From Shewanella subflava (GTDB lineage: Bacteria > Pseudomonadota > Gammaproteobacteria > Enterobacterales > Shewanellaceae): a stretch of 64,000 nt of DNA. A model generated the notes under the pieces. That model saw only the letters and a program-made list of their open reading frames with translations, did no database searches and had not been told where the DNA came from. The stretch lies in contig NZ_JAPDMX010000030.1 of the NCBI RefSeq assembly GCF_025971955.1, forward strand, positions 127,752 through 191,751, read 5' to 3'. The position numbers and the translations under genes were made by a program. Below, piece after piece: positions 2,546 through 19,857 of this stretch (positions within the stretch are counted from its first letter, which is position 1; each line of letters opens with the position of its first letter).

Positions 2546-2573
2546 ATTTAACACTTTATACATTGTGCGCAGT
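2546..2573. other. dif-like Xer recombination site, probable attachment junction of the element
   Basis: On the plus strand, ATTTAACACTT (2546-2556) resembles the XerD arm, TATACA (2557-2562) is identical to the central region of E. coli dif, and TTGTGCGCAGT (2563-2573) resembles the XerC arm. By my count 22 of 28 positions match E. coli dif as I remember it, with the outer 8 bp of the XerD arm and the centre exact. The site lies between the last gene of a rolling-circle element and small genes of chromosomal type, exactly where elements that exploit host XerC/XerD leave a hybrid dif. The inner XerD-arm bases (CTT for TAA) differ, as often seen in phage-derived arms. Confidence 0.65.
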
Positions 2574-18263: not shown

Positions 18264-18288
18264 AAATGAACTGTATAGGCAGTCATGT

Positions 18289-18319
18289 CAGTCAGATAAA
18301 CTGACTGGCGTTATTTTTT
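18289..18319 (+). terminator. Terminator after the YvcK-like gene
   Basis: CAGTCAG (18289-18295) pairs with CTGACTG (18301-18307) across a five-base loop, followed by GCG and a T-rich run. Confidence 0.75.
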
Positions 18320-18548
18320 GTCAATATTTACAGGGTTTTCATTTCACTTGTATTGGATAAAAGCGCGGCTCACGCCTGAACGAAAAGACAACAAACTCCG
18401 CTTTTTGGTTAAATCAGTAAATTTTTACGCAATGCCGGCAAGCATTGGCTGATAAACTCTTGAGGCAACAGTCGCTGAAGCGCAGCAGCTTCAATGTTTG
18501 ATAAACAACGGTTTACAAGATTATATTGCTAACTAACCGCATAGAAAA

Positions 18549-18578
18549 AGGCCTGCAACATTTTTATTGCAGGCCTTA
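18549..18578 (-). terminator. Terminator of the aminotransferase gene
   Basis: AAGGCCTGCAA (18549-18559) pairs perfectly with TTGCAGGCCTT (18568-18578); reading leftward the stem is followed by a T run. It lies about 85 bp after the stop of the leftward gene. Confidence 0.85.
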
Positions 18579-18663
18579 ATACATCAATTAATAAAGCAGT
18601 CAACCGCTGTAAAAAATACTTATCAGATCGGCGTGCTTAGGTAGTACTTATTGTTACCGAATA

Positions 18664-19857
18664 TTAAAGCACTTGGGCAATTGCCTTACACACAGCCGGC
18701 ATATTGTCTTTGGTCAAACCCGCAACACTAATTCTGCCTGATCCGACGATATAAATAGCAAATTCATCACGTAAACGGTTAACTTGTTCCTTGTTTAGTC
18801 CAGAGAAACTGAACATACCATTCTGGCGTGAAATAAAGCTAAAGTCTTGGCTGACGCCTTCTGCTTTCAGACTGTCAACAAATAAGGTACGCATTTGCGC
18901 AATGCGCTCACGCATTTCAGCTAATTCTGCTTCCCATTCAGCTTTTAACATATCATCAGCTAAAATAGTGCTCACAATTAAACCGCCATGGGCAGGTGGA
19001 TTTGAATAATTTGAACGAATTGTCTTTTTAATTTGGCTGAAGCTGCGCTCTGCCGTTGCTTTATCTTCAGCAACTAATGTAACTGCGCCAATACGTTCAT
19101 TGTACAAACCAAAGTTTTTTGAAAAAGAGTTAGCAATTAATAACTCAGGCACAACCTTTGCTACCGCACGTAAACCTTGAGCATCTTCTTCAATACCTGC
19201 TCCAAAACCTTGGTAAGCAAAGTCAAACAAAGGCAATAATGACTTCTCTAAGCAAAGTTGGCCAACCAGTTTCCATTGTTCAATGTTTAAATCAATGCCC
19301 GTAGGATTATGACAACATCCATGCAGTAACACTATGTCTCCAGCAGATGCTTGATCTAAGTCAGCTAACATTGCGTCAAAATCCATATCATGCGTGGCTG
19401 CTACGTAATATTGATATTGCTTAACCGTTAATCCCGCTGTTTCAAAAATATTTTGATGATTCGCCCAGGTCGGATTACTCACCCATATGGTTTTAGATGT
19501 GGTGTTTGTAGCTAAAAAGTCAGCCGCAACACGTAATGCTCCGGTTCCACCTGGCGCTTGTGCGGTCACCGCGCGATGTTGCTTAACTAATTCACTATTT
19601 TCACCAAACAATAATGTCTGCACGACTTGGTTGTAGGCTTGAACGCCTTCAATTCCGAGGTAATTTTTGGTTTTTTCGATTTCAAGTAACTTAGCTTCGG
19701 CTTTTTTTACTGACTTAAGCACAGGAGTTTGACCCGCTTCGTCTTTATAAATCCCTACCCCTAAATTCACTTTATGGGCACGGTTATCCGCTTTAAAGGT
19801 ATCAGTTAAGCCTAAGATAGGATCCGCAGGTGCTTGAGAAACTTGAGAGAAAATCAT
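18664..19857 (-). CDS. aspC: Aspartate/aromatic amino acid aminotransferase
   Basis: A PLP enzyme that interconverts aspartate or aromatic amino acids with their 2-oxoacids. The 397-residue product resembles E. coli AspC along its length, from [13 protein letters not shown] at the N terminus through [22 protein letters not shown], the PLP lysine in [14 protein letters not shown] and NYSNPPAHG. TyrB has the same fold and the two cannot be separated by eye, so tyrB is an acceptable alternative name. It is a single gene with its own terminator. Confidence 0.9.

Follow-up and report, generated by a model that had tools for sequence, protein, structure and literature searches.

A probable temperate corticovirid prophage in the dif site of Shewanella, with a possible Xer activation gene beside its attachment site

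The analysed window, a 64-kb stretch of a Shewanella genome (G000:C32:127752-191751, within the 238,780-b contig C32), carries near its left edge a dif-like site that follows a set of replication genes. This raises the question of what is integrated here, and by which recombinase. Our preferred reading, to which we give a probability of roughly 85%, is that the Shewanella dif holds an intact-looking temperate corticovirid prophage of 11,644 bp, which would depend on host XerC and XerD, an altered recombination arm and activation by the phage protein gp a.

The 28-bp site at 2546-2573 reads ACTGCGCACAA-TGTATA-AAGTGTTAAAT on the minus strand. It was the sole match in the window to a dif pattern allowing up to three mismatches, and none of 100 shuffled windows contained any match, which confirms the dif-like site with the centre TATACA and two Xer arms that an earlier note on this DNA had described. 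Its count of 94 bp from the HTH gene, which ends at 2452, to the site also holds. Across the whole genome (4,094,210 b in 34 contigs) the pattern gave two matches, both on the minus strand, and a reversed control pattern gave none. The partner is a canonical dif 11,644 bp from the right site, in the same orientation as a direct repeat; the note had predicted a second site about 6-12 kb leftward, and had suggested looking for structural genes to the left of the window, where a capsid, ATPase and lysin set does lie between the two sites. The features are listed below, with coordinates of the window unless contig C32 is named.

1-2573, no strand: part of the prophage inside the window; the element extends leftward as far as the canonical dif at G000:C32:118653-118680
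1-1132, minus: in-window part of the HUH replication-initiation protein (phrog_38601, E 7e-74)
1119-1313, minus: small zinc-ribbon-like ORF, 64 aa (weak zinc-ribbon matches, below cut-off)
1310-1489, minus: small ORF, 59 aa, no family match
1471-1800, minus: small ORF with CxxC pairs, 109 aa (homologue recognised in genome G010)
1797-1961, minus: small ORF, 54 aa, no family match
2156-2452, plus: gp c-like HTH protein, 98 aa, probable lysogeny repressor (phrog_4441, E 1e-12; PF07022, E 9.1e-5)
2546-2573, minus: right prophage junction with altered XerD arm (pattern search, empty-site comparison)
2546-2556, read on the plus strand: phage-derived XerD arm of the right junction, ATTTAACACTT
2557-2562, read on the plus strand: centre of the right junction, TATACA
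2563-2573, read on the plus strand: chromosomal XerC arm of the right junction, TTGTGCGCAGT
C32:118653-118680, minus: canonical dif at the left end of the element, outside the window, TATGCGCACAA-TGTATA-TTATGTTAAAT
C32:118788-119327, plus: gp a, XafT-like, 107 bp from the canonical dif
C32:124085-124918, minus: major capsid protein, MCP (PF18628, PF25513, PDB 2vvf)
C32:125167-125865, minus: P9 ATPase (P9-type packaging ATPase)
C32:130297, minus: the right site (2546-2573 of the window) as matched by the genome-wide dif pattern

The XerD arm of the right site (AAGTGTTAAAT) is changed at three centre-proximal positions, 3 of its 11 bases. Together the two junctions imply an attP that would read TATGCGCACAA-TGTATA-AAGTGTTAAAT, in which the core of the XerC arm and the centre would be host-like and the XerD arm altered. 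The exact altered site was absent from the other 128 Shewanella genomes when searched with up to two mismatches, and none of the results that the earlier note had named as refuting its proposal was obtained. We also compared related strains without the element, as it had suggested. Genomes G042 and G035 lack a capsid match and show an empty site: their only dif is intact and runs straight into the right flank known from our genome, with identities of 84% and 85% respectively up to dif; the G042 dif differs by one base in the XerC arm. Identity between our genome and the empty sites stops at the border of the centre and the XerD arm, as expected for recombination there, returns over the arm's outer eight bases and is lost beyond them. 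The left-flank gene is found across dif, about 1.3 kb off in G042 and G035 and 0.6 kb off in our genome. The match of the right flank to these empty sites supports the proposal that 2546-2573 is the chromosomal junction of a prophage. The motif is short, and it might have been a chance or relic sequence with no relation to the Rep genes; the paired site and the empty sites already refute this, recurrence in relatives speaks against it too, and we regard it as next to impossible.

The note had also placed the locus in the terminus region, and two measures agree with this. To the left of the element, the GC skew of C32 in 10-kb bins is positive with the exception of two bins (20-40 kb); to the right it is negative with the exception of the bin at 130-140 kb. 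Its sign changes, with these exceptions, in the region of the element. The polarity of GGGNAGGG octamers agrees, with 4 on the plus and 1 on the minus strand to the left and 0 and 2 to the right, although they are few in number.

From the left site the genes run gp a, P6, P5 lysin, P1-like spike, gp j, a P3-like ORF, the MCP and the P9 ATPase, followed by small ORFs, the HUH Rep, further small ORFs and the gp c-like HTH gene; order and orientation are as in PM2 and NO16. Both PM2 P2 domains are recognised in the capsid protein (PF18628, E 5.6e-33; PF25513, E 1.4e-31), which also matches the structures 2vvf (PM2, E 1.3e-39) and 9t9v (E 9e-55) and among its best phage records is 47% identical to PG21, about 42-44% to NO16 and 34-37% to PM2. 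The P9-type ATPase and P5 lysin are recognised by phrog_2666 (E 1e-28), phrog_873 (E 6e-49) and synteny with PM2. The whole Rep gene spans G000:C32:127060-128883 (607 aa counted from the ATG) and matches PF23343 at E 1.3e-4, under the family cut-off; the HxH and YxxK motifs are invariant in all seven Reps compared, those of PM2 and NO16 among them. A gp c homologue was found by BLAST in 16 of 19 mapped elements or phage genomes (two being reference phages). By gene content, the element is a corticovirid (PM2/NO16-like, Vinavirales) prophage, related to PM2-type phages, which are icosahedral and contain a membrane. The earlier note had likened it to filamentous phages of the CTX or VGJ type, to which the use of dif, the HUH Rep and a weak RstR-family match of the gp c-like protein (E 0.0019) would be suited. 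We rejected that reading, which now has virtually no probability: the PM2-type double-jelly-roll capsid protein refutes it, the P9 ATPase, PM2-like lysin and gene order also stand against it, and no filamentous-phage structural genes were seen among the scanned ORFs.

The HUH Rep was not recognised in the related elements of genomes G033, G058 and G075, where a similar-looking ORF of 196-198 aa lies in the Rep region (L049:5855-6451, L050:3372-3962 and L118:13227-13823). That of G075 has no NCBIfam match, and the replication module of these three elements has perhaps been exchanged.

Turning to the recombinase, the tyrosine recombinase family PF00589 has 19 matches in the genome, none of them on C32, and none of the 22 element ORFs scanned against Pfam encodes a recombinase. 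The host XerD and XerC score above their equivalog cut-offs. With dif-like direct repeats at the chromosomal dif and no integrase of its own, the element has these two features of an integrative mobile element exploiting Xer, and the earlier description of an integrase-free HUH-Rep element at dif, with 2546-2573 as its junction near the terminus, stands.

A different tyrosine recombinase could in principle integrate the element, such as an enzyme of about 434 aa or the integrase of another resident element. The gene for the former occurs in 104 of 129 Shewanella genomes, and 16 of the 30 dif loci fetched have a recombinase of about 430-434 aa no more than 1.5 kb from dif (a count that omits one weak 21% match), on either side of dif and outside the prophages (for example L043:2094-3398 of G017:C17). 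Such enzymes could be mistaken for a prophage integrase; they are distant from XerC/XerD, scoring 64.5 bits against the TIGR02224 cut-off of 335. Our genome also has 17 further PF00589 matches, and Vibrio tailless prophages at dif regularly carry integrases, the choice between XerCD and their own integrase having been left 'inconclusive' in 2024 (PMC11630473). We rejected the 434-aa enzyme as the integrase of the element, since its gene lies outside the elements elsewhere and has no match at E <= 1e-40 in our genome; G025, G033 and G058 also lack it, yet have dif prophages. With no PF00589 match on C32, and with arms and a centre that are those of dif, another recombinase is improbable, and integration by XerCD appears very likely. 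An element without an integrase, in a genome without the dif-adjacent 434-aa recombinase, bears directly on the question left open for Vibrio.

How regularly do such elements occupy dif? The capsid gene was found in 11 of 129 Shewanella genomes by profile and in 10 by sequence search, and all 11 copies lie within 10 kb of dif or a broken dif. The dif pattern gives only 0-2 hits per genome, with at least one in 123 of the 129, so that 11 of 11 is far from chance. Nine copies have both junctions; G055 has the broken site alone, on a contig that ends near the expected position of the second, and G025, whose ATPase ORF is truncated, has the canonical site alone. In an order-wide sample we found 22 capsid matches in 20 of 394 genomes and examined 20 of the matches: six have a 6-bp-centre pair, one is of PG21 type with an 8-bp phage centre, one is irregular and 12 have no pair, some of these on contigs too short to tell. 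An integrase resembling the one in Vibrio phage 1F53_PE004 is present in five of these 12, and two more have a distant recombinase-like ORF. Many corticovirids outside Shewanella are thus away from dif. A second contig collection gave a site pair in 6 of 10 loci, two of these being G010 and G017 again.

The altered arm proved to follow a rule. We compared both junctions in 16 elements with a 6-bp centre (nine from Shewanella, seven others). Left out were G055 (one site, contig end), G025 (second site not found), Vibrio sp. CK2-1 (G208; PG21-type, with centres that differ between the junctions), G296 (centres of the two sites differ), P. prydzensis L017 (no clear second site), and the free phages and viral contigs, which have one attP each. 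The centre is identical at both ends in all 16, in four versions (TGTATA, TTTATA, CATAGA and CGTATA). Ignoring the two outermost XerC-arm bases, one arm is also identical at both ends in 15, G077 differing by one base, and the other arm differs by 3-7 bases. In 11 elements, ours included, the XerD arm is altered (class A); in the remaining five the site is flipped relative to the genes and the XerC arm is altered (class B), as also in the free phages PM2, Cr39582 and GXT1010. Regardless of class, and without exception, it is the junction next to gp c that carries the altered arm and the one next to gp a that is a canonical dif; no element keeps both arms intact. The gp c gene was identified directly by BLAST in 13 of the 16 and by way of the gp c of G075 in G033 (79% identity), G058 (74%) and G282 (31%); BLAST found gp a in 15, and the Hydrogenovibrio element has a weakly matching HTH ORF there. 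In the capsid tree the two site orientations are intermixed and neither class forms a clade (6 changes for class A, 4 for class B); as long branches also meet there, we do not claim a single flip.

From this arrangement, one junction would be a working dif and the other crippled. It is possible that the altered arm reflects neutral decay and has no stabilising role: altered arms vary among elements, outer positions are partly kept, and G246 is an exception in retaining the inner TTA. Decay of this kind would not be expected to leave none of 16 elements with both arms intact, to fall always on the arm away from gp a in both orientations, or to concentrate near the centre, where, in class A, the inner three positions of the XerD arm have a mismatch fraction of 0.70 against 0.28 for the outer eight (0.73 at the inner three against 0.43 at the outer positions in class B). 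We consider neutral decay unlikely, and stabilisation of the prophage by the altered arm likely.

A third type of junction is found in PG21, the best capsid match of our element. Vibrio sp. CK2-1 carries a near-identical copy of this phage as a prophage (L014:5315-15360, DNA identity 99.8-100%). Its gp c-end junction is AGTGCGCATTA-TGTATC-TTATGTTAAAT, with a 6-bp host-like centre; the gp a-end junction, as in PG21 itself, is AGTGCGCATTA-TTAGTTCT-TTATGTAAAAT, with an 8-bp phage-like centre. The XerC arm is common to both, and the centre is different, and longer, at the gp a end. Judged by these junctions, a corticovirid isolated as a free phage is integrated here at a dif-like site. The copy breaks the rules of an identical centre and of a canonical site at gp a. 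PG21 and our element are both corticovirids with an XafT-like gp a; they differ in attP, that of PG21 having an 8-bp centre unlike the host's and only the XerC arm matching. The arrangement resembles VGJphi, with homology failing on the XerD side (PMC4246890). A gap-free scan for 6-bp centres missed both the PG21 site and the Xer-like sites beside XafT-like genes described below; the 8-bp centre was found by comparison with the prophage copy.

Against NF040522, the 'VC1465 family Xer recombination activation factor', our gp a scores 28.4 bits (E 1.4e-6) and that of PM2 31.2 bits (E 1.9e-7). We scanned 22 gp a-position proteins, 21 of them distinct (the match of CK2-1 is that of PG21), and 19 of the 21 match at E <= 7.2e-6; the Hydrogenovibrio protein matches at E 0.001, behind another family, and that of G246 has no NF040522 match. 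Scores of 19-48 bits lie below the curated cut-off of 70, which no match in any of 394 genomes reaches. Because the profile also catches generic HTH proteins (in 129 of the 394 genomes, many within the first ~50 profile positions), we limited the XafT-like comparison set to matches running past the HTH, which gave 12 proteins from 23 loci; all 12 match NF040522, the best at 56.9 bits. Alignment of eight Shewanella gp a sequences with this set by hhalign gave a probability of 96.2% (E 2.4e-9) over 74 columns, spanning the W-x-G-F and TP motifs beyond the HTH, compared with 0.5% for a gp c control. On these profile grounds gp a is a remote homologue of the XafT family and not a filed member. Midonet et al. 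reportedly tested the function of XafT in TLCphi in 2019.

Scanning for Xer-like sites with centres of 5-8 bp, we found one scoring above all 40 block shuffles at 17 of the 23 XafT-like loci and at none of seven HTH-only loci, mostly with 7-bp centres. Three of the 17 are corticovirid (L147, L162 and L166), and the other 14 all have a 7-bp centre. The latter, non-corticovirid genes beside 7-bp-centre sites, are at L139, L140, L142-L145, L148, L149, L152, L153, L157, L159, L160 and L164, with the site mostly within ~150 bp upstream of the matched stretch. The Pfam family DUF3653 is matched by our gp a at 21.5 bits, just below the cut-off of 22.4. It has hits in 9 of 129 Shewanella genomes, eight of the nine 0.1-0.43 kb from dif, and six of those near dif are in capsid-bearing genomes; of the 11 genomes with the capsid gene, the profile finds gp a in only 6. 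Two DUF3653 genes less than 0.5 kb from dif occur without a capsid match (G096:C1:2963772 and G112:C71:9465, genome G112 being only 52% complete), and are perhaps other Xer-exploiting elements. NO16 gene 7 (L004:3558-3989) and its PG21 counterpart (L005:1-417) score 47.5 and 46.4 bits against NF040522, under the cut-off of 70, and are deposited as S-adenosylhomocysteine hydrolase, probably a misannotation.

It may be that XerCD acts here and gp a is simply an HTH transcriptional regulator, no phage factor being needed, as in VGJphi. The sub-cut-off NF040522 scores would fit this, as would Foldseek, whose hits were for the most part HTH proteins and others that bind DNA, none of them at E <= 0.001, and the PG21 prophage, whose gp a scores 46.4 bits beside a VGJphi-like site with a non-matching centre. 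A tblastn search of gp a against phages found PG21 only, at E 6e-3. A plain regulator would not account for a match that runs past the HTH (W-x-G-F to TP), for the hhalign result with its near-zero control, for the tie of the DUF3653 genes of the genus to dif, or for an attP of the TLCphi type, at which integration depends on XerD catalysis (PMC4246890). We regard the plain regulator as a real possibility that we nonetheless doubt, and lean somewhat towards activation of XerD by gp a.

TLCphi is a close parallel. In its attP the XerC arm and the centre resemble those of dif and the XerD arm is degenerate, and the phage integrates by a reversible, XerD-first exchange without FtsK (PMC4246890); its XerD-activating factor, XafT, is phage-encoded (PMC9765430). 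The attP of our element is of this type, with XerC arm and centre intact and XerD arm altered, and not of the CTX/VGJ type, although the TLCphi XerD arm has 'very little similarity' to that of dif (PMC4246890) and ours is less altered, at 3 of 11 bases. Unlike our element, TLCphi, from Vibrio cholerae, is a satellite phage without morphogenesis genes of its own. In the gonococcal genomic island and Legionella LME-1, two integrative mobile elements exploiting Xer, only one end is a modified dif, as in our element, and the opposite end is wild-type; this arrangement is linked to stable integration, and the three substitutions in the modified site of LME-1 influence stability (PMC9765430); neither is a corticovirid, and LME-1 uses the single recombinase XerL.

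Integration at dif by phages like ours has been proposed before, and our element adds to a known kind: for NO16, XerCD/dif integration was put forward, and a dif-like sequence in PM2 noted (PMC9966536). NO16 is temperate, like our element, with the same gene order and orientation, an XafT-like gene at the gp a position, and a dif-like site right after the HTH gene in the same orientation, its XerD arm similarly altered (GGTGCGCATTA-TGTATA-ATGTGGTAAAC). It differs in its Vibrio host and in its Rep, ~30% identical to ours, and in the capsid tree groups with Photobacterium and Grimontia elements, away from our element. 'Asemoviridae' was proposed for it, and GenBank files it under Corticoviridae; the accessible part of PMC9966536 describes neither an activator nor a broken-arm rule. 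PM2, a Corticovirus of Pseudoalteromonas, has in common with our element the capsid fold, the gene order and the module of gp c, dif-like site and gp a; it is described as lytic, its site is flipped relative to the genes and the XerC arm is altered instead of the XerD arm. A 2007 survey by Krupovic and Bamford found integrases in three PM2-like elements and mentions the use of Xer by CTXphi (PMC1950889). Jorvik (Rhodobacter) and PhiCjT23 (Flavobacterium) are double-jelly-roll membrane phages at dif-like sites for which XerCD was proposed, Jorvik having no predicted integrase (PMC10589892, PMC9719478); unlike our element, Jorvik is alphaproteobacterial and inserted in a RuBisCO operon, and PhiCjT23 is an ssDNA phage.

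In the mechanism that we propose, the phage genome would circularise and host XerC and XerD would recombine attP with dif. The canonical dif restored at the gp a end would serve the host, and the altered arm would keep FtsK-driven dimer resolution from excising the prophage. Less surely, gp c may be the repressor, and gp a, encoded beside attP, may activate XerD in place of FtsK, as in TLCphi, which would bring integration and excision under phage control. We give about an even chance to a wider reading, in which corticovirids including PM2 have a conserved lysogeny module of gp c repressor, half-broken attP and gp a Xer activator, by which an icosahedral membrane phage that lacks an integrase would integrate and excise through XerCD independently of FtsK. 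In 6-bp-centre elements the broken arm would always be the one towards gp c, whatever the orientation of the site; dif would be restored at one junction, and at the other FtsK-driven loss would be blocked. PM2, long regarded as lytic, would be temperate or a recent derivative of a temperate phage. The broken-arm rule would account for the coexistence of two dif sites in one terminus. The link of gp a to XafT, if true, would provide a function for PM2 gp a, make it testable whether PM2 is temperate, and extend Xer activation from a satellite phage to icosahedral dsDNA phages. The literature searched, which takes in a minority of subscription journals, contained neither this link nor the two-class rule nor the Shewanella series; it also gave no published link of XafT or DUF3653 to corticoviruses, which is weak evidence.

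Two minor observations concern other dif-like loci. Genome G041 has a second dif-like site on another contig (L136:10749, G041:C22:96748) with its centre as the reverse complement, TATGCGCACAA-TATACA-GAGTGTTAAAT; the surrounding 19.9 kb showed no homologue of corticovirid genes. Just outside the Grimontia and Photobacterium elements are extra gp a-like or P5-like ORFs (L016:5054-5221; L013:15806-16357 and 18264-18746), which suggest tandem or successive insertions at dif.
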